Below, one piece after another: positions 20,733 to 63,338 of a stretch of DNA of 64,000 nucleotides. Source of the DNA: Salegentibacter tibetensis (GTDB lineage Bacteria; Bacteroidota; Bacteroidia; Flavobacteriales; Flavobacteriaceae); NCBI RefSeq assembly GCF_020164485.1, contig NZ_JAIQZA010000013.1, forward strand, positions 1 to 64,000. The letters are read 5' to 3'. Positions within the stretch are counted from its first letter, which is position 1. Every line of letters starts with the position of its first letter. The position numbers and the translations under genes were made by a program. The notes below the pieces were generated by a model. It was not told the origin of the DNA. It saw only the letters and a list, made by a program, of their open reading frames with translations, and did not search any database.

Positions 20733-20834
20733 ATGAAAAAAGCAATAATCACTGGAATCACAGGACAAGATGGTGCATAATTAGCTGAATTCCTTTTAAA
20801 ATAGAGATATATAGTTCAAAGGATTAAAAAGGAA
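20733..20834 (+). pseudogene. gmd: Remnant of gmd 5' end
   Basis: Translation from ATG at 20733 gives [15 protein letters not shown], then a stop where gmd has Tyr16, then LAEFLLK, a second stop, and RYIVQRIKKE. The full-length gmd at 2114 reads [28 protein letters not shown], so the match covers about 34 codons. Two in-frame stops and loss of the rest of the gene make it a clear relic. It marks an old recombination or gene-replacement joint inside the locus. Downstream sequence to 20867 shows no further recognisable gmd. Confidence 0.9.
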
Positions 20835-20867: not shown

Positions 20868-21686
20868 ATGCAGGAGAAGCCACAATTGTCAATCATCACG
20901 GTAAACCTGAATAATAGGGAAGGGTTAAAGAAAACCATGCAAAGTGTTTTTGAACAAACCTGGCAGGAGTTTGAGTTTATCATTATTGACGGCGGTTCCA
21001 CTGATGGGAGTAGGGAATATATTGAGCAACATAAGGAAAAATTAAGCTATTGGGTGAGCGAGCCTGATAAAGGGATTTATAATGCGATGAATAAGGGGAT
21101 TGATAAAGCAAATGGGGAATATCTTTTGTTTTTAAATAGTGGGGATAGTTTTAATAATAAAGAAGTTTTAAAGAATTTTAGTTTACTTAAACCTTTTGAA
21201 GATATAATTTATGGAAATTCCTTAATTATATATCCAGATAGCGAACCAGAATTAAAGGTCATGCCTTCAAATTTAGAAGGAATGACAATTTTTTATAGAA
21301 CACTTAACCATCAATCTGTATTTCATAATAAAAGAATTTTCGAGAAAGGGAAAAGATATAATGAAGAATATGAAGTTTTGGCAGATTGGGTTTTATACAA
21401 TGAAGTGGTTTTGTTTGAGAATGGGAGCTATCGACATATTGATTTAGTAATTGCAGATTATGACTTAAATGGTTTTAGCAGTAAACCTGAAAATAAGGCT
21501 GTAATGCAAAGAGATAGAAATAAATTTTATGCTGCAAATATTGATTTTTTCATAAACCACTTAATTCAAAATTATGAAGATTTAAAAGGTAAGAACAAAA
21601 TAGCCAAATCAAATTATAAAAGCAAATATTATAAAGCCTTTGTTTTGTTTAAAAAGTCATTAAGAATGATAATAAAGGGTTATTAA
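20868..21686 (+). CDS. GT2-family glycosyltransferase
   Basis: This 272-residue GT-A enzyme has SIITVNLNNREGLKKTM at the N-terminus. FIIIDGGSTDGSREYI holds the nucleotide-binding Asp, and LLFLNSGDSF (residues 86-95) the DXD-like metal site. A later motif region, YEVLADWVLYNEVV, is typical of GT2 enzymes in colanic-acid-like loci (WcaA/WcaE type). It is cytosolic, probably membrane-associated and inverting. It lies just after the gmd relic and is the first intact gene of the next block. Donor and acceptor unknown. Confidence 0.87.
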   Translation: MQEKPQLSIITVNLNNREGLKKTMQSVFEQTWQEFEFIIIDGGSTDGSREYIEQHKEKLSYWVSEPDKGIYNAMNKGIDKANGEYLLFLNSGDSFNNKEVLKNFSLLKPFEDIIYGNSLIIYPDSEPELKVMPSNLEGMTIFYRTLNHQSVFHNKRIFEKGKRYNEEYEVLADWVLYNEVVLFENGSYRHIDLVIADYDLNGFSSKPENKAVMQRDRNKFYAANIDFFINHLIQNYEDLKGKNKIAKSNYKSKYYKAFVLFKKSLRMIIKGY

Positions 21687-29017: not shown

Positions 29018-29556
29018 AGGGCTAAGGTAATAAAAAAGGGGGAACGCGGGTGCTTCGACAACGCGCTTCGGCAGCGTTTGGACAGCGCTTCGACAGGCTC
29101 AGCGTGACAGTAGGTTTTAGAAAGTATGTTTTACCCTTGTTGTCAGGCTGAGCCCGACCAGCGGGAGGAGATGTCGAAGCCGGTTTTATTAGTAAAATTT
29201 TATATGAAAGTAGTTAAAGGTGATAATTGTACTGCTCTAGCGGCGCTTCGACAAGCTCAGCGAGACAGCTGTATTCAAAAATATTAGAAAGGTATACTTT
29301 CTTTCAACATTACTGTCAGGCTGAAGCCGACGTGAGGAGGAGATGTTGGAGACCTTGTTTGTGGAATAAATGGACTTTGATAGGGCCTGCCAGTTTAGAT
29401 TAATTAGAAAATTGTAACAGCGCTTCGACAAGCTCAGCATGACAATAATTGTAGAGGAGAAAAAAGGATGTTTGTTTCAATTTTACTGTCAGGCTGAGCC
29501 CGACCAGCGGGAGGAGATGTCGAAGCCCGTTTGTTTTAAATTCCTTAAATTTAATT
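29018..29556. repeat. Cluster of three family A repeat pairs
   Basis: No gene is present. Three paired units occur. Each has a left half resembling GCTTCGACAAGCTCAGCGTG (about 29053-29108, 29243-29270, 29417-29444) and a right half that reads TGTCAGGCTGAGCCCGACCA followed by GCGGGAGGAGATGTCGAAGCC (about 29141-29182, 29312-29349, 29485-29527). The halves are imperfect inverted repeats separated by 30-50 bp of AT-rich sequence. The last unit ends ~30 bp before a GIY-YIG nuclease gene. Similar units follow that gene. Confidence 0.9.
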
Positions 29557-29865
29557 ATGAAAACGTATTTCGTGTACATTCTTGAGTGTTCTGATCAATC
29601 ATTTTATACAGGAATCACCAATAATTTAGATAGAAGATTATCAGAGCATAATTCTGGTTATGATAAAAGTTGTTACACCTATTCAAGAAGGCCTGTGAGT
29701 CTACTATGGAGGGAAACATTTACTGATGTAAATGGAGCGATTCAAGCAGAAAAACAAATTAAAGGTTGGAGCAGGAGAAAAAAGTTAGCTTTAATAAATG
29801 GAAACTGGGATGATTTAATTAGATTTTCACGTAATTATACTGATTTTGGTAAACCGGAGGAGTAG
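29557..29865 (+). CDS. GIY-YIG nuclease domain protein
   Basis: This 102-residue single-domain protein has YFVYILEC (4-11, the GIY position), FYTGIT (16-21, the YIG position), Arg26/Arg27 in LDRRLSEHN, and Glu65 in AEKQIKGWSRR, the metal-binding catalytic acid. It resembles the small YhbQ/UPF0213-like group. Members cut DNA or act on DNA ends; most have no known cell function. It lies alone, flanked on both sides by family A palindromic repeats, and has a damaged paralogue in the same kind of setting at 38760-39080. That shared setting suggests the nuclease and repeats move or persist together; this is inference. Confidence 0.88.
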   Translation: MKTYFVYILECSDQSFYTGITNNLDRRLSEHNSGYDKSCYTYSRRPVSLLWRETFTDVNGAIQAEKQIKGWSRRKKLALINGNWDDLIRFSRNYTDFGKPEE

Positions 29866-30287
29866 CGCTTTGGTGACGCTTCGGCAGCGCTTCGACAAGC
29901 TCAGCGTGACAGTAAGCAAATCCTTGGTGTCAGGCTGAGCCCGACCAGCGGGAGGATTCAGCCTGACCTGAGCCTAGCCGAAGGATCGAAGCCCGGTTTT
30001 TTTAGTAAAACTTTCCTGGTAAATTTTTATATCCATATCTAATTTTAGGTGAAGTTTTATATAAAAGTAGTTCGGTAATAGTTGTATTACTTTGGTAGCG
30101 CTTCGACAGCGCTTCGACAGGCTCAGCGTGACATTTCTTGCTTTAACCGCGCTTCGATTCTTCGAGTGCTTTGCGTTCAGAAAGGCGGCTCATCTTGACA
30201 TACCTGAAAACTTTGATTAGTACTTAAAAAGAAATCAGTTGCAAAACTTTAATCAAAGTAATAGCTTTACCGCAAAGCCCGGCCAAT
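29866..30287. repeat. Family A repeat cluster after the GIY-YIG gene
   Basis: No gene here. Left-half units lie at about 29865-29912 and 30094-30133, the first immediately after the GIY-YIG stop codon. A long right-half unit at 29927-29998 carries an extra internal copy (TTCAGCCTGACCTGAGCC). A degenerate piece lies at 30150-30200. The rest is AT-rich. Together with 29018-29556 this makes the GIY-YIG gene an island inside a repeat cluster about 1.2 kb long. The promoter for the gene starting at 30288 must lie at the right end, but I could not pick one. Confidence 0.85.
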
Positions 30288-38448: not shown

Positions 38449-38759
38449 TTGGTCGACTTTGAACACTGTCATGCTGAGCCCGACCAGAGGGAGGAAAGTC
38501 GAAGCACTTAGAAGTTTAAATGGCACTACCTCAGTACTACCTAACACTTCGATCCCTTCGACTAAGCTCAGGGCAAGCTCTTCGACTCCGCTAAAGCTGT
38601 GCTCAGGGCAGGCGCATCGTCTGCTACCGCCGCCTCCTCAGTGTTACAGCGCGTTTTAAAAGAATATTTATGAATAACCAACATTGTCAGGCTGAGCCAG
38701 TATAACCGGCCGGGAGGACGGTTTTACTGATGGTCGAAGCCCTTATTTAAAACTTCTGC
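38449..38759. repeat. Family A repeat cluster downstream of NeuB-type gene
   Basis: No gene here. A right-half-like unit (TGTCATGCTGAGCCCGACCA then GAGGGAGGAAAGTCGAAG) lies at about 38468-38507. A left-half block with two nested copies (TTCGACTAAGCTCAGGGCAAGC and then CTTCGACTCCGCTAAAGC) covers 38549-38615. A rearranged right-half containing an inserted ATAACCGGCCGGGAGGACGG lies at 38681-38742. The block ends next to a broken GIY-YIG gene, the same association as at 29-30 kb. Confidence 0.85.
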
Positions 38760-39080
38760 TTATTCTTTCGACTTTTTATCGGTCTTTCCAAACCTGCTAT
38801 AATTGCGTGAAAATTTAATTAAGTCATCCCATTCTTCATTAATCAAGGCCTGTTTTTTCCTTCTACTCCAACCTTTTATCTGCTTCTCTAGCATTATTGC
38901 ATAATTCGGATCCGTAAATTCTTCAAACCATTTTAATACTACTGGTCTTCTGGTATAGGTATATGATTTTTGATCTGAACCGGAATTATGTTCGGATAAC
39001 CTTCTATTTAGATTGTTGGTTATACCTGTGTAATAGCTAGCATCGCTACATTCAACTATGTATACATAATATAGTTACAT
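38760..39080 (-). pseudogene. GIY-YIG nuclease gene with stop at codon 2
   Basis: On the minus strand from ATG at 39080 the second codon is TAA where the intact paralogue at 29557 has AAA. After that the frame runs undisturbed: YYVYIVECSDASYYTGITNN, RRLSEHNSG, TYTRRPVVLKW, LEKQIKGWSRRKK, and stops at 38760-38762. All GIY-YIG core positions, including the catalytic Glu, are preserved, so the damage seems recent or the protein starts differently. No other in-frame ATG, GTG or TTG precedes the core. It sits between family A repeat units. About 106 codons long. Confidence 0.82.
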
Positions 39081-39392
39081 ACTTCAATTTAATTAATAAA
39101 GACGAATATGGAAAAGGATTTTCTAAACTGCTTACATAGTGGCTGCTTACTACCAAGCACTTCGACCATCGCTTCCTTCGTCAGCGGCTCAGTGTGACTC
39201 CGCTTTTTAAAATAATTATCAATAAACCAAGAACCAATCTCCAATCCCGTATTAACCAATTCCCAATCTAGGACTACCAAAACATCAATTCTCGTCTCAA
39301 GGTCTTGAGTGGCCAGAAACTAAAGACTAACAACTAAAAACTACCGACTAATCTCTAATTTATTTACATTTGTTTAAACCCAAAATACTTCC
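39081..39392. other. Spacer with degenerate repeats
   Basis: No gene. A further family A fragment (CACTTCGACCATCGCTTCC followed by GTCAGCGGCTCAGTGTGACT) lies at 39159-39198. The text from 39309 to 39353 is a run of near repeats of ACTAAAGACTAACAACTAAA type. The start of the next gene, ATG 39393, follows. No clear promoter was found. Confidence 0.55.
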
Positions 39393-49545: not shown

Positions 49546-49611
49546 AGTTTTAATAAGCCGTTCCTCTGGCTTCTGTTTGACAAAAGGAGCGTGTCTGAAA
49601 AGATAATAAGG

Positions 49612-49715
49612 CGTCATCCTGAATTTATTTCAGAGCCTGTCCCGATCTTTTATCGGGGATCTAAGCTGTTATAAAGTAATTACATGTTAGAAGCTGAACC
49701 AAGTTCAGCTTGACG
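49612..49715. repeat. Family C element
   Basis: The left end CGTCATCCTGAATTTATTTC and the right end GCTGAACCAAGTTCAGCTTG followed by ACG are imperfect inverted repeats. The core contains a CCCGATCTTTTATCGGG hairpin. Related elements lie at 55534-55636, 57353-57455 and 63119-63200. Confidence 0.85.
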
Positions 49716-50228
49716 AAGATCTGTTTAACAAGAATTTGATTCACTCTACTGCGCAAAAGTCGGAGGGGTTTTTCCATTTCAAGGAAAAACATAAAAAATA
49801 TTAGTGTATTCGTGGCCCTTGGCTCATCCTTGTGAAATTAACCCCGGTTTTTTAATTCAATTCCGCTCCTCTGGAGCTCTTCTCCTCTAACACTTATTTT
49901 TCACTATAAATATATCGCCTTTCTGAGGCTGACAATTTTAAAAGCTTCTCACCTTTCAAAGGGGAGCCCGCCTGAAGGATAAAATCATGATTTTAAAAGT
50001 TGAGATTTTTTTTAAACCGTCATCCTGAACTTGTTTCAGGATCTAACATGATCTAAATTAATATCACCCTAAAATCTAGTACGATTACCTCTCGTCTCTA
50101 CTCTTCATTACGACTAAGGAGCATGGTAATCTTTTGATTCCTGTTTCTGGTTATCAGTTATCATTTCTCTGTTTTGGTTTTTTTTTTGAAGTATTAATAA
50201 TTTTTACAATTATCGAATTCACAAAAAA

Positions 50229-51322
50229 GAACCCCTCCGTCTTTTCGTTTTGCAAACGAAAATCCACCTCCCCTTGAAAAAAGGTGAGGAGCTTTTACTT
50301 TGCTAAGACCCGTTAGATCAAGCTACCGTTTAAAGACTAAGGTCTACCGACTAAACAAAAGTGTGATAATCTTTGCTCAGAAAGTTTTTTGGACTTGAAC
50401 AGATTGCTTCAGTCGTTCCTTCTTCGCAATGAAGAGTTTAGTAGATGTTAGAGCTTATTTTACAAATGATTACCGTCTAATCCATATTAACGAATTAACG
50501 AACTCCCAACTCACGAATTAACAGAAAAGAACCCCTCCGTCTTTTCGTTTTGCAAACGAAAATCCACCTCCCCTTAAAAAAAGGTGAGGAGCTTTTACTT
50601 TGAATAGGCCGGTTAGATCAAGCTACTGTCTAAAGATTAATATCTACCGACTAAGCACGAGCGTGGTAATCTTTGCTCAGAAAGTTTTCGGATTTAAACA
50701 GATTGCTTCAGTCGTTCCTCCAATGACGATTTTTTCGTAATATCAGTTTGAAGAATGAAGAGTTTAGTAGATGTTAGAGCCTATTTTACAAATGAATACC
50801 GTCTAATCCATATTAACGAATTAACGAACTCCCAACTCACGAATTAACAGAAAAGAACCCCTCCGTCTTTTCGTTTTACAAACGAAAATCCACCTCCCCT
50901 TGAAAAAAGGTGAGGAGCTTTTACTTTGCTAAAACCCGTTAGATCAAGCTACCGTCTAAAGACTAAGGTCTACCGACTAAGCAAAAGTGTGATAATCTTT
51001 GCTCAGAAAGTTTTTTGGACTTGAACAGATTGCTTCAGTCGTTCCTCCATCCAATGACGGTTTTTTTGTAACCTCATTTTAAAGAAGTATTTGAGGAAAT
51101 ACAAGCAGTTAGTCGTTAGAAGTATTAAACAAATGACTACCGTCTAATGGCCCCGATTCCATATTATCAAATTAATGAATTAACGAACTCCCAACTCACG
51201 AACTAACAAAAAAGAACCCCTCCGTCTTTTCGTTTTGCAAACGAAAATCCACCCTGCCCGACTGCGTCATTCAGGCGGGCTCCCCTTGAAAAAAGGTGAG
51301 GAGCTTTTACTTTGAATAGGCC
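50229..51322. repeat. Tandem array of ~300-360 bp units (3 full, 1 partial)
   Basis: Each unit begins GAACCCCTCCGTCTTTTCG at 50229, 50529, 50855 and 51214, giving spacings of 300, 326 and 359 bp. Near the start every unit has a palindrome TTTTCGTTT-TGC-AAACGAAAA (one base changed in copy 3) and then a second stem from CCTCCCCTT to AAGGTGAGG. Units 2 and 3 are longer through a short insertion near AATGACG..TTTTTTCGTAA. No reading frame is conserved. Copy 4 stops after about 110 bp and is interrupted by a GCCCGACTGCGTCATTCAGG insertion. Confidence 0.85.
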
Positions 51323-55016: not shown

Positions 55017-55804
55017 ACTCAGGAAATTCTGTTCAAAAATAGCAAACTATTATTTTTTAATGGAATTTCATCAATTTCTTTGAAGTTAAAGCTTTTGTAA
55101 TTATTTATGCCTGAAACAAAAAACCGGGTTTTATAGTTAAAGAGTCTAGAAATTATATTAGTTCTAGTTTAGAGTAGCTATTGCATTTTAAGATTTATTC
55201 TTATCTCAAATTAAATCGTCACCCTGAGACCCGTGATAAAAAATTTTATCTAGCGTAGGTAAATGACGTTTCGAGCATAGCGAGTTTTAAACTCCGTGTG
55301 TGAGTGTAGCAAATCAGCAGCGTTAAAAATTTTTGAAGCCCTGGAAAAAATTTAGCTGCTGATTTGCGATTTTTTGGCCTTGTTGCCAAAAAAACACCTC
55401 CACATAGGACGCCTTTTTTTGTTTCGTTTTTTGGGCGAGCAAAAAATGAAAAGGAAACTTCCAAACCAGTCAAGTTTCTTTTTGAATTATAAAAATATAA
55501 AAAACAAGCCTAAATATCAGGGTTTTAAAAATACGTCAATGGTAACTTGTTTCAGTGCCTGCCCCGATTTTTATCGGGGGTCTAAGTTGAACTGAAATAC
55601 TTTCATGTTAGATGCTGAAACGAGTTCAGCATGACGTTCTCAATAATCTGTGTTTAACCTATAATATCATTGCCAGATTAAACTAAAGCCATTATATTTT
55701 AATTTCGAGGCATCACTGCTGTGTGTCTAAATCTCGATTATCGAGAAAAAAACTTGTAGAAACAAGCGGTAATTGATTAGTTTAGTATTTCAGAAATCCA
55801 ACCT
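55017..55804. repeat. 788-bp spacer with left arm of a long inverted repeat
   Basis: No gene. Position 55217-55555 is the left arm of a long inverted repeat whose partner is 57434-57792. The arm starts CGTCACCCTGAGACCCGTG, includes the perfect 13-bp hairpin GCAAATCAGCAGC (55309-55321) / GCTGCTGATTTGC (55355-55367) and ACACCTCCACATAGGACG, and ends in a family C element (55534-55636). A small minus-strand frame (55246-55473) mirrors one in the other arm but is best explained by the repeat. The pssA promoter should be near 55740-55800. Confidence 0.85.
55534..55636. repeat. Family C element, left copy of inverted pair
   Basis: Ends are CGTCAATGGTAACTTGTTTC and GCTGAAACGAGTTCAGCATG followed by ACG. 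The core reads TGCCTGCCCCGATTTTTATC then GGGGGTCTAAG. Compared with its partner at 57353-57455 the outer arms are inverted, but this core is in the same orientation on the plus strand. Confidence 0.85.
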
Positions 55805-56563
55805 ATGAGTATAAAAAGACATATTCCGAATTTAATCACGCTTTTAAATCTTCTTTGCGGAACCATCGCGGTAATCTTTGCGGTGCAGGGAAGTCTCATT
55901 ATGGCTGCAATTTTTGTAGCCGCCGGAATTTTCTTCGATTTTTTTGATGGACTGGCTGCCAGAAGTCTGAAAGTATCCAGCGAGATAGGTTTGCAGCTCG
56001 ATTCCCTGGCCGATGTGGTAACCAGCGGTGTGGTTCCCGGGATTGTGATGTATCAGTTGCTGGATAACGCCCTGCCCGGAAGTTCGGGGGTAGAGAATAC
56101 CGGCTGGGAGGTTAATCCCCTTTGGTGGGACTGGAATTTCAACCCGCTTGCCTTAATTGGTTTGCTAATTTGCCTGGCCTCGGCATACAGACTGGCAAAA
56201 TTCAATGTAGATGATCGCCAAACCGATTCTTTTATAGGCGTTCCTACCCCGGCAAATGCAATTTTAATTCTGAGTTTTCCGTTAATTCTGACTTTTCAGC
56301 CCGATAGTTTTATCACCGGTCTAATATTAAATGAATGGTTTTTAATCGCGATAACAATATTAAGCTGTTACTTGCTGAACGCCGAAATAAAACTTTTTGC
56401 CTTAAAATTTTCAAATTGGGGTTTTGCCGATAATAAGCTGAGGTATTTCTTTTTGCTTTTATGTCTGGTGCTAATCCTGGTGTTTCAGTTTGTAGCTGTA
56501 CCGCTTATTATTTTAAGCTATGTAATTTTATCGGTAGTTTTTCCGAAGAAGGAGGAGGCGTGA
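55805..56563 (+). CDS. pssA: CDP-diacylglycerol-serine O-phosphatidyltransferase
   Basis: A 252-residue polytopic membrane enzyme with the CDP-alcohol phosphatidyltransferase signature D-G-x2-A-R-x8-G-x3-D-x3-D: Asp48, Gly49, Ala52, Arg53, Gly62, Asp66 and Asp70 in FDGLAARSLKVSSEIGLQLD and beyond. It makes phosphatidylserine, the precursor of phosphatidylethanolamine. The N-terminus KRHIPNLITLLNLLCGTIAV is typical of PssA. The gene lies inside a ~1.9-kb segment bounded by a long inverted repeat. A strong stem-loop follows its stop codon. Confidence 0.93.
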   Translation: MSIKRHIPNLITLLNLLCGTIAVIFAVQGSLIMAAIFVAAGIFFDFFDGLAARSLKVSSEIGLQLDSLADVVTSGVVPGIVMYQLLDNALPGSSGVENTGWEVNPLWWDWNFNPLALIGLLICLASAYRLAKFNVDDRQTDSFIGVPTPANAILILSFPLILTFQPDSFITGLILNEWFLIAITILSCYLLNAEIKLFALKFSNWGFADNKLRYFFLLLCLVLILVFQFVAVPLIILSYVILSVVFPKKEEA

Positions 56564-56570
56564 TAAACAC

Positions 56571-56603
56571 AAACCTCACAGGTTTTTGAAACCTGTGAGG
56601 TTT
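56571..56603 (+). terminator. Strong stem-loop after pssA
   Basis: AAACCTCACAGGTTT (56571-56585) and AAACCTGTGAGGTTT (56589-56603) are perfect 15-bp arms around a 3-nt loop, 7 bp after the pssA stop codon. No T-run follows. It lies between convergent genes and may terminate both. A half-copy of the same text (AACCTCACAGGTTTCTG) recurs near 57266-57282, so it may also be a dispersed element. Confidence 0.65.
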
Positions 56604-56664
56604 AGTAATTACTTAAACAATTTTTTTCCTAAGCTCGAAGTTTTATGCGGAAATTTAAATTCGG

Positions 56665-56907
56665 CTAAACTAATTCCTTTTTGTAATCATATAGGAATTC
56701 AGGAGCAAAGTCGGCGCCATTCGGCCATTCTATGGTAAAGTGATTTAAGTTGAATTTCCTGAAATAGTCTATATCTTTTAAGGGTTCAAAGATTTCCCCA
56801 TAGAGTTCTTTCTCCAGATCAATTTTCTTTTCCAGACCATCATTAAATTTCACTTTAATTTTATAGTCTTCGAGATATTCCGCTGCTATTACTCGAATTG
56901 TTTTCAT
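56665..56907 (-). CDS. DUF2442 domain protein
   Basis: The 80-residue acidic protein MKTIRVIAAEYLEDYKIKVK has the DUF2442 layout. FNDGLEKKIDLEKELYGEIF lies in the middle, and FNLNHFTIEWPNGADFAPEF near the C-terminus (the WPNGADxxP motif is diagnostic). DUF2442 genes commonly pair with DUF4160 genes, as here, two bases apart. The pair behaves like a small toxin-antitoxin or regulatory module in comparative surveys, but no biochemical role is established to my knowledge. Both genes lie inside the long inverted repeat. Confidence 0.85.
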   Translation of the reverse strand: MKTIRVIAAEYLEDYKIKVKFNDGLEKKIDLEKELYGEIFEPLKDIDYFRKFNLNHFTIEWPNGADFAPEFLYDYKKELV

Positions 56908-56909
56908 TT

Positions 56910-57167
56910 TTAATCCAGTGGTTCTATTTTAGAAAGTGGTTTTCTTAACGTCATCTTTGTCCAGTTTTCCATAAGTTCATTTTTATGTAAATCAAGCCAC
57001 TCATAAATCATTTTTAGCGCTCTTCTCGGAAGCTGTCCCGTTACCATACCATTCTCTGTTTCGATTATAGCATCATATCCCTGATAATTCACATGAAAAT
57101 GAGGTGGGTTATGATCATTGAAGAACATGTAAATAACTATTCCATAAAATCTACTGATCTCTGGCAT
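56910..57167 (-). CDS. DUF4160 domain protein
   Basis: An 85-residue protein with the N-terminal DUF4160 signature: PEISRFYGIVIYMFFNDHNP followed by PHFHVNYQGY. The conserved His residues in FNDHNPPHFHV may bind metal or nucleic acid. It lies directly upstream of, and in the same operon as, the DUF2442 gene. The two are usually found together. Function unknown; possible toxin partner. Confidence 0.85.
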   Translation of the reverse strand: MPEISRFYGIVIYMFFNDHNPPHFHVNYQGYDAIIETENGMVTGQLPRRALKMIYEWLDLHKNELMENWTKMTLRKPLSKIEPLD

Positions 57168-57870
57168 AGTCTAATATACGAAAAAAGTAAAAAAATGATG
57201 AAATTCAATATGCGTTATTCTTATAATAATTTGATGAATTTTTTGAAATGGGAACTCAATGAAAAAACCTCACAGGTTTCTGAAAAGAATTTTTAGGTGG
57301 TAGTTTAGAGTAACTATTACCTTTTACAAATTATTGTAAACTTAAGTTAAATCGTCACCCTGAACTGGTTTCAGAGCCTGCCCCGATTTTTATCGGGGGT
57401 CTAAGATGAGCTTAAATACTTTCATGTTAGATGCTGAAACAAGTTACCATTGACGTATTTTTAAAACCCTGATATTTAGGTTTGTTTTTTTATAATTCAA
57501 AAAGCAACTTACCTGGTTTGGAAGTTTCCTTTTTCATTTTTTGCTCGCCCAAAAAACGAAACAAAAAAGTGCGCCCTATGTGGAGGTGTTTTTTTGGCAA
57601 CAAGGCCAAAAAATCGCAAATCAGCAGCTAAATTTTTTCCAGGGCCCTTCGACTCCACTCAGGACAAGCTTTCAAAAATTATTAACGCTGCTGATTTGCT
57701 ACACTCACACACGGAGTTTAAAACTCGCTATGCTCGAAACGTCATTTCCCTCCGTTAGATAAAGCTTCTTTATCACGGGTCTCAGCATGACGTAATCTCA
57801 TGCTTCCCTTTCAAAAGTTACGATAATTGCAGGATTTAAGTAGTGCGAGTATTAGAGTAAGTTCTAATTT
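57168..57870. repeat. 703-bp spacer with right arm of the long inverted repeat
   Basis: No gene. It holds a half-copy of the pssA stem-loop text (near 57266-57282), a family C element (57353-57455), then the right arm of the long inverted repeat (57434-57792). A frame of 73 codons at 57541-57762 reflects the repeat. Within this arm a 26-bp family A-type piece, CCCTTCGACTCCACTCAGGA then CAAGCT (57645-57670), interrupts the sequence. The other arm has a single base there. Confidence 0.85.
57353..57455. repeat. Family C element, right copy of inverted pair
   Basis: Ends are CGTCACCCTGAACTGGTTTC and GCTGAAACAAGTTACCATTG followed by ACG. The core reads AGCCTGCCCCGATTTTTATC then GGGGGTCTAAG, the same plus-strand orientation as the left copy although the arms are inverted. 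The last 22 bases belong to the long inverted repeat. Confidence 0.85.
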
Positions 57871-63118: not shown

Positions 63119-63200
63119 CGTCAAGCTGAACTAGTTTCAGCTTCTAAGTCGTTTGGAGTTGTAACAATAGGTTAGATCCTGAAATAAATTACCATTGACG
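63119..63200. repeat. Family C element, short copy
   Basis: Ends CGTCAAGCTGAACTAGTTTC and CCTGAAATAAATTACCATTG plus ACG are imperfect inverted repeats around a shorter core than in the other copies. It lies in the 253-bp spacer between recQ and the convergent metalloprotease gene and could mark termination. The text continues TATTAAAAAACAACC, echoing the flank of the long inverted repeat. Confidence 0.75.
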
Positions 63201-63338
63201 TATTAAAAAACAACCAGACAGATTCTTCCGACTTGATTAGAATGACGTCCAAAAAACAACAGATTCTTCTAACCTGATATTGGGTTATTACGATTTGAAA
63301 TTTCGTACCCCGTACTTCAAACCTTGTACTTTAGAGAA

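Follow-up and report, generated by a model that had tools for sequence, protein, structure and literature searches.

Does the small GIY-YIG nuclease gene that stands among short palindromic repeats in Salegentibacter tibetensis belong to those repeats, in the way that a dedicated transposase belongs to the elements it moves? The locus lies in the window analysed here, a stretch of 64,000 nucleotides (contig NZ_JAIQZA010000013.1, positions 1 to 64,000), and it touches a broader question. Most short bacterial palindromes split into GTAG-tagged REPs, which come with RAYT transposases, and CGTC-tagged REPs, whose tag often reads TGTC and whose hosts include Bacteroidetes, Alphaproteobacteria and Neisseria, where the repeat is called dRS3 (PMC3733652). 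In the survey's account of this second group, CGTC-tagged palindromes are known from five phyla and apparently come without a dedicated transposase, the transposases found next to them being a few fortuitous cases, and it closes by asking what moves them (PMC3733652). A cognate GIY-YIG gene amid such palindromes, in Bacteroidota and in Alphaproteobacteria, makes that question directly testable.

The reading preferred here, to which we give a probability of about 0.68, is that the window locus is a REPtron-like unit in which a GIY-YIG gene is bounded by inverted copies of a hairpin that its product recognises. The plan of such a unit would be TGTCA-hairpin, gene, hairpin-TGACA, with hairpins related to the CGTC-tagged REPs. 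A literature search for the repeat strings found no paper.

The nuclease gene and the hairpins of the window

The gene (29557-29865, forward strand) encodes a protein of 102 amino acids whose sole Pfam match is the GIY-YIG domain PF01541 (E 4e-18), covering residues 4-76, and the conserved family residues are kept. Across 15 relatives 19 residues are invariant, and these include Y7, Y17, G19, R27, H31 and E65, which we take to be the catalytic residues. Among solved structures, the UPF0213 proteins 1zg2 (E 3e-13) and 1ywl (E 3e-11) come nearest. NCBIfam has no family for the window protein, and the terms UPF0213, COG2827, YhbQ and YazA are absent from the 2006 survey of GIY-YIG nucleases (PMC1564403). 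Upstream of the unit lies an epimerase gene, and downstream an ORF without Pfam match.

The original prediction placed this gene among five inverted pairs of a palindrome termed family A, and the embedding itself is borne out, with inverted arms on both sides of the ORF. One type of arm reads as a hairpin followed by TGACA on the forward strand, and is assigned to the reverse strand: arm 1 (29085-29109), arm 3 (29243-29267, with the tag AGACA), arm 5 (29420-29444), arm 7 (29887-29911) and arm 9 (30109-30133). The other type, on the forward strand, reads TGTCA and then the hairpin: arm 2 (29141-29181, loop expanded), arm 4 (29314-29354, degenerate), arm 6 (29487-29528) and arm 8 (29928-29994, its loop carrying an additional insertion; z -2.7). 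All nine arms were assigned by reading the sequence; arm 2 folds as a pair with arm 1 (z -5.1). Because the two types alternate, the array resolves into four inverted pairs and one half: four of the five pairs claimed stand, and the fifth falls away since arm 9 has no clear partner. Arms 6 and 7 adjoin the gene on its 5' and 3' sides with TGTCA and TGACA outermost, the same orientation as in most classed relatives. The loops at 29141-29181, 29487-29528 and 29928-29994 are enlarged by extra sequence (CCCGACCAGCGGGAGG), and a hairpin loop in the trpG-trpD spacer of locus L250 is likewise enlarged, by a CTGAATTTATTTCAG hairpin; these loops look as if small elements were nested in them.

Pairing was examined in half-units of loop types A and BC, with tag and core as the anchors of the alignment; identical sequences within a locus were counted once, which reduced 200 to 126. 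Across these 126 distinct half-units, Watson-Crick pairing at the four positions of the outer stem reached 0.905, 0.968, 0.960 and 0.968, against means of 0.42, 0.28, 0.59 and 0.63 after shuffling the 3' arms among units, and the list holds 18 different fully paired outer stems. The constancy of the GA/GA stem part and of the loop is by construction, as both belonged to the search pattern. Among the 25 units with both halves parsed, the outer stems differ between the two sides in 24, self-pairing averages 7.68 of 8 positions compared with a cross-half identity of 4.24 of 8, and both sides are fully self-complementary in 18. Since the sides differ between halves yet pair with themselves, each half has been kept as its own hairpin, and it is very likely that each half acts as one. 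Arm-to-arm pairing of a whole cruciform was rejected as a conserved feature on the same grounds, although arms 1 and 2 together nonetheless fold well, with the z-score given above. Fold energy is uninformative for single family A halves (z about 0); a dRS3-like hairpin folds strongly (z -4.8).

The counts contradict a dispersal of family A through the genome. The core TTCGACARGCTCAG, with at most one mismatch, occurs 7 times in the whole genome of 4.21 Mb (187 contigs), 5 of these within 0.5 kb of the window gene, and the reversed core used as a control pattern occurs 0 times. The family A pattern gave 1 match in 200 kb of control stretches from the same genome, where a CTGAA-TTTCAG family gave 17. 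A dispersed family A was therefore rejected for S. tibetensis: its cores mark the window locus.

The same contig carries a damaged paralogue of the gene (38760-39080, reverse strand; PF01541 71 bits), which reads ATG TAA, with the stop at codon 2, and then 104 open codons. As had been claimed, its surroundings are those of the intact gene: family A arms, assigned by sequence reading, lie inward-facing around it at 38467-38506 (forward strand, TGTCA-hairpin), at 38685-38742 on its 3' side (forward strand, TGTCA-hairpin with expanded loop) and at 39158-39198 on its 5' side (reverse strand, hairpin with the tag TGACT). The genome holds 11 PF01541 matches, of which 8 are in small proteins as judged from reading frames, and a stop is present in 3 of these 8 small genes. 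The remaining six small genes each adjoin palindromes of families other than A: a dRS3-like palindrome, TCCCGCCTTCGCGGGA, at 87 kb on contig C2; palindromes of the form GTCATCCTGAA...TTTCAGGATC at two loci on C2; a palindrome of TCGAGAAGTG type on C101; and tRNA-Val-like repeats alongside a tandem pair on C111. The members of this pair (bases 319-1900 of locus L003, about 139.9-141.5 kb on C111) are nearly identical; the array around them also includes two tRNA-Val genes and, besides these, several degenerate tRNA-like copies in which the middle is replaced by the palindrome ATCCCGATTTTACATCGGGA.

Other repeats were noted in the window. A further GTCA-tagged palindrome family, GTCATCCTGAA...TTTCAGGATCTAAC, is found at 49607-50054, 55529-57459 and 63119-63210; palindromes of this kind also stand beside two other GIY-YIG genes in the genome. 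An inverted repeat (55238-55555 and 57434-57770; pieces of 57-120 nt, 93-98% complementary, about 2 kb apart) encloses ORFs of 252, 80 and 85 amino acids, and a tandem repeat of about 300 bp runs for three to four copies at 50128-51253. At 20733-20828, before the ORF at 20868, lies a remnant, a 75% copy, with an in-frame stop, of how the gene at 2114 begins.

Hairpins beside related genes in other genomes

Relatives were gathered from one species-level scan (79 loci, from the best 80 of 93 confirmed relatives) and from 149 genomes of the family (30 further loci), giving 109 loci in total; three with short or masked flanks and one duplicate were dropped for the flank tests, which left 105 genes. 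The original prediction expected family A to be enriched near such genes, and it is: the 129 kb closest to the genes (up to 600 bp away) hold 142 cores (at most two mismatches), compared with 25 cores in 400 kb of more distant sequence from the same loci. At least one core lies near the gene in 25 of the 109 loci. Among the 83 fetched loci without a near family A core, 62 carry a hairpin of a different class no more than 350 nt away, and in 21 no hairpin was named by the patterns used.

Nor are the repeats equally common where the gene is missing, since at least three cores are found in 31 of 102 genomes with a GIY match against 2 of 47 without (Fisher 2e-4). G015 (8 cores, in an incomplete genome) and G027 (3 cores) form these exceptions. 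Five more genomes with at least three cores have only a weak GIY match, and 19 genomes with a good match carry 0 or 1 core; the loci of 13 of these 19 comprised 10 with other hairpin classes, 2 with expanded family A loops and 1 classless. The exception genomes count against a strict rule of gene with core. Core enrichment near the gene and co-occurrence across genomes nonetheless support the expected REP/RAYT-like pairing, with a GIY-YIG domain as the enzyme.

The flanks show the same arrangement when no motif is assumed. Comparing the two 150-nt flanks of each gene (local score of at least 26; controls being ORFs in the same loci), the 5' and 3' flanks are similar in inverted orientation for 62 of 105 GIY-YIG genes and for 3 of 189 neighbouring ORFs. 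Direct similarity, too, is more frequent for the genes (53 of 105) than for the ORFs (9 of 189), which is attributed to arrays. A gene-ward TGTCA is present in the 5' flank of 71 of the 105 relatives compared with 19 of the 189 neighbouring ORFs, the mirror tag in the 3' flank of 62 compared with 28, and both in 52 compared with 4. These tags are almost wholly lacking from one related GIY clade (Omnitrophota, SAR116 and others), which was picked after the tree had been seen and to which L107 and L109, too short for the tree, were added by taxonomy: its 15 genes give 5', 3' and joint counts of 0, 1 and 0, compared with 71, 61 and 52 for the 90 genes outside it. In the opposite orientation the tag was counted in 33 and 32 flanks of the 90 and in 30 and 33 of the 189, as arrays would give. 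In the 87 loci with a classed hairpin, the nearest hairpin within 300 bp is gene-ward in 68, directed away in 14 and absent in 5 on the 5' side, and gene-ward in 58, directed away in 12 and absent in 17 on the 3' side; the nearest hairpins form an exact inward pair in 50 of the 87. It is practically certain that gene and hairpin are associated. A phage-borne element was also considered, one scan of a viral collection having confirmed 5 loci.

The kind of hairpin follows the kind of nuclease. On a tree of 110 proteins, of which 86 were classed (4 of 114 rows, with fewer than 70 residues, were left out, and the 24 classless proteins were not counted), hairpin class changes 9 times, where the minimum possible is 6 and shuffled labels gave a mean of 41.0, with 0 of 200 shuffles as low. 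Class D forms a single clade (support 97). The number of columns behind the tree is small, 50 of the 107 inner branches are open, and 5 changes each are needed for classes A and BC. For class A genes dN/dS is 0.04-0.26 where dS could be estimated. Hairpin classes that each track their own nuclease clades would form a natural set of sequence-specific nucleases.

As CGTC-tagged REPs have been reported in Alphaproteobacteria without an enzyme, the gene type was sought in 190 alphaproteobacterial genomes, and 76 of them gave a match. In 30 loci examined, among the matches listed, a gene-ward hairpin (GTC tag, at least 7 of 8 pairs, loop of 3-7) was found on the 5' side in 14, on the 3' side in 18, on both sides in 12 and on neither in 10. 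The corresponding counts were 5, 7 and 1 (5', 3' and both) for 305 control ORFs from 20 stretches of 15 of those genomes, and 2, 2 and 0 for 13 neighbouring ORFs in the loci themselves. Among the 32 alphaproteobacterial hairpins listed, 28 start with AT and 30 end with CCA, after a CGTC or TGTC tag, matching the survey's description. The Hyphomicrobium genome G162 contains 20 copies of the repeat (at most three mismatches), 4 of them within 0.8 kb of the gene.

Alternative sites in the trp operon and the M48 peptidase spacer

Two spacers of the trp operon were compared in 15 genomes of the genus of the window, trpE, the trpG-type amidotransferase and trpD having been confirmed by Pfam in the window's genome. 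The spacer before trpE holds the gene between hairpins in 5 genomes, two gene-less hairpins in 5, one hairpin in 3, a degenerate hairpin in 1 and nothing in 1, where the anchors are 15 bp apart. The trpG-trpD spacer holds the gene in 2 (one with a stop) and gene-less hairpins in 6; the flanking genes are about 3-4 bp apart in 3, and 4 have sequence without these hairpins. The edges of the trpG-trpD spacers are accurate to about one base. The class F nuclease gene is present at both sites in 0 of the 15 genomes, and many congeners have gene-less hairpin units at the other trp site. The dN/dS of the gene at the trp site, 0.04-0.17, indicates that it is under purifying selection. The trp spacers of the genus (trpE-trpG and trpD-trpC in L250; L236-L249) contain several families of palindromic elements, present or absent by species, and are thus a useful natural record of insertions.

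Class F gene copies group by trp site (support 100), and the trpE tree joins the first-site carrier G161 with a second-site carrier (support 99). On the trpE tree, presence of the gene at the first site requires 5 changes, which is not below the number for shuffled labels (mean 4.4). The sequences behind both DNA trees were cut one base out of register, a shift of little consequence for trees of this type. Among G152, G154 and G156 the dS of the gene is 0.19-0.22 compared with 0.79-1.61 for the adjacent trpE, and between G000 and these three 0.52-0.70 compared with 1.16-1.25. The trpG-trpD pair shows the reverse (gene 2.53, trpE 1.10), so that low dS is confined to the leader-site copies. In pairs of G152, G154 and G156 the gene is identical to 0.93-0.95, compared with 0.76-0.80 for the 60 bases preceding it and 0.84-0.92 for the 63 bases that follow; in the leader from -150 to -60 identity is again 0.93-0.98, and this stretch may be conserved for a function of its own. 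The dS values and the identity profile at the leader site are consistent with the gene having been transferred into this same hairpin site. However, the conflict between the trees is also explained by an ancestor with both copies followed by differential loss, and the low dS, in a contrast that rests on 98 codons, could partly reflect codon constraint. Two alternative hairpin sites, with a gene tree that follows the site, are what a homing or transposing unit would leave. When empty and filled trpG-trpD spacers (class F only, in diverged genomes) were compared by eye, no target-site duplication appeared, and no dispersed near-identical gene copies were seen, close copies being tandem (L003/L004, and pairs in G013 and G108).

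A second kind of site is the spacer before an M48 peptidase gene, whose neighbour on the other side is presumably the methyltransferase RlmB. In 30 loci, among the matches listed from 126 genomes with the peptidase, the gene is present in 4, a lone hairpin in 1 and a clean spacer of 5-15 bp in 7. In one of these 4, L187, the first part of the gene is lost and both hairpins are kept. In L173, L175, L185 and L189 this spacer contains an unrelated GTCATTRCGA... element where other genera have the GIY-YIG unit.

What the nuclease may do, and comparison with known systems

A REPtron-like unit of this kind would probably work in four steps. In a single-stranded region, such as would arise on the lagging strand or during DNA uptake, each half would close on itself as a small hairpin, leaving its GTCA tag unpaired; the covariation observed demonstrates the pairing, and the single-stranded setting is presumed. 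The cognate nuclease would then read loop and tag and nick there, a step suggested by the match between nuclease clade and hairpin class, by the kept family residues and by the activity reported for Ssn nucleases; the nuclease probably cuts the hairpin in single strands. Repair of the break from another copy would carry gene-bearing or gene-less units into cognate hairpin sites, as the alternative sites and the patchy distribution suggest. Finally, genes would decay into stop-bearing copies and then into gene-less remnants; stop-bearing and shortened copies are seen in the window paralogue and at L187, and their order is presumed. The original prediction had offered mobilisation or processing of the repeats by the nuclease as an inference, and as such it has gained indirect support from the alternative sites, the patchy presence and a gene tree unlike that of the host gene. 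That cutting by the nuclease spreads the unit is nevertheless a proposition for which we see even odds. That enzyme family and hairpin go together in distant bacteria as well suggests that a widespread class of bacterial palindromes has its missing partner in this small GIY-YIG enzyme. A broader and more tentative proposal, which falls somewhat short of even odds, is that small GIY-YIG nucleases mobilise a whole CGTC-REP superfamily, nicking GTCA-tagged hairpins and copying them into cognate sites, and that this system would have arisen independently of HUH enzymes, with loop and nuclease co-evolving in several phyla.

Ssn, reportedly described from Neisseria in Nature Communications in 2025, is said to be a GIY-YIG family of site-specific single-strand nucleases. 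The neisserial enzyme reportedly acts on dRS3-like repeats and modulates transformation, and specificities are said to vary within the family. The window protein resembles Ssn, as reportedly described, in being a small stand-alone GIY-YIG protein (here of 102 amino acids) with cognate repeats near its gene, and it most likely belongs with these single-strand nucleases. It might be a modulator of DNA uptake or single-strand processing that has the hairpins as targets but does not spread them, its gene being placed among them for regulation or through selection. The reported action of Ssn on such repeats favours this account, as does the resemblance of class F hairpins to the dRS3 pattern ATTCCC(N8)GGGAAT (PMC3898611), dRS3 being CGTC-1 in the survey's classification (PMC3733652). 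However, inverted flanking, alternative sites, patchy presence and a site-following tree would be unexpected of a fixed regulator. We regard a purely modulatory role as rather unlikely, and it is not exclusive of the REPtron-like reading.

The palindromes might instead be spread by another enzyme, with GIY-YIG genes merely settling in repeat-rich spacers, as the other element families in the trp spacers and the different palindrome in the M48 peptidase spacer of other genera could suggest. This is improbable, given that hairpin class specifically matches nuclease clade, that neighbouring ORFs and the related GIY clade (chosen after the tree) are without the hairpins, and that the 2013 survey describes only few fortuitous transposases beside CGTC REPs (PMC3733652). 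Still less probable is that the hairpins are RNA elements, terminators or stabilisers of mRNA, that stand beside the gene incidentally. Stem covariation holds for RNA as for single-stranded DNA, some hairpins lie at gene ends, and T-rich sequence trails several of the TGTCA-hairpin arms in the window. However, a conserved tag, outermost on both sides in 50 of the 87 classed loci, is not a feature of terminators, and a terminator scan of 29018-30287 found 0 (shuffles 1.0). Chance, or an artefact of a repeat-rich region, to which the confinement of family A to this contig in this genome might point, is refuted by the controls (reversed core 0, neighbouring ORFs 3 of 189, alphaproteobacterial ORFs 1 of 305, 25 cores in 400 kb).

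The REPtron-like reading can be set against several known systems. The UPF0213 proteins 1zg2 and 1ywl share the domain and a similar length with the window protein. GIY-YIG homing endonucleases are likewise present or absent at one site in congeners and have gene trees unlike that of the host; here, in contrast, there is no intron, the protein of 102 residues has no second domain, and the target would be the flanking hairpin, not a host gene. As regards IS or MITE elements with a DDE transposase, one of the two ORFs adjoining the window unit is the epimerase and the other has no Pfam match, and the comparison of trpG-trpD spacers by eye showed no target-site duplication.

The CGTC REPs (Di Nocera 2013), among them dRS3 of Neisseria and RPE-4 and RPE-6 of Rickettsia, share with the units described here the CGTC or TGTC tag, the hairpin and, in the survey's description, dimers of opposite orientation. 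They are described there as having a stem of 8-9 bp starting with AT, a loop of 4-5 nt and a CCA tail. The alphaproteobacterial units agree with this in tag, stem, loop and tail, and class F in tag, stem and loop but not in the tail. Family A has the unpaired tag at the hairpin end, TGTCA being outermost in the window, but its outer stem is of 4 bp, followed by a GA/GA mismatch and often an expanded loop, and the CCA tail is missing. Because stem and tail differ, family A is CGTC-REP-like and not a strict member. Moreover, where the survey's account of these repeats reports no dedicated enzyme (PMC3733652), a GIY-YIG gene stands in the middle here.

The closest likeness in arrangement is to REPtrons, the units of RAYT (TnpA-REP) genes, in which a dedicated enzyme gene is flanked by short hairpins with an unpaired tag of 4 nt, gene-less dimers occur elsewhere, and the enzymes are repeat-specific where several families share a genome, as the survey describes them (PMC3733652). 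A gene between inverted copies of a repeat, which defines such units, is found here in the 50 of 87 inward pairs and the 62 of 105 genes with inverted-similar flanks. The enzyme, however, is an HUH/Y1 tyrosine transposase in REPtrons and a GIY-YIG protein here, the tag is GTAG there and GTCA here, and family A is not dispersed genome-wide. As enzyme and tag differ, the window unit is REPtron-like by arrangement and not a REPtron. If one enzyme does both cut and spread these repeats, the unit would represent a second, independent invention of the REP lifestyle.
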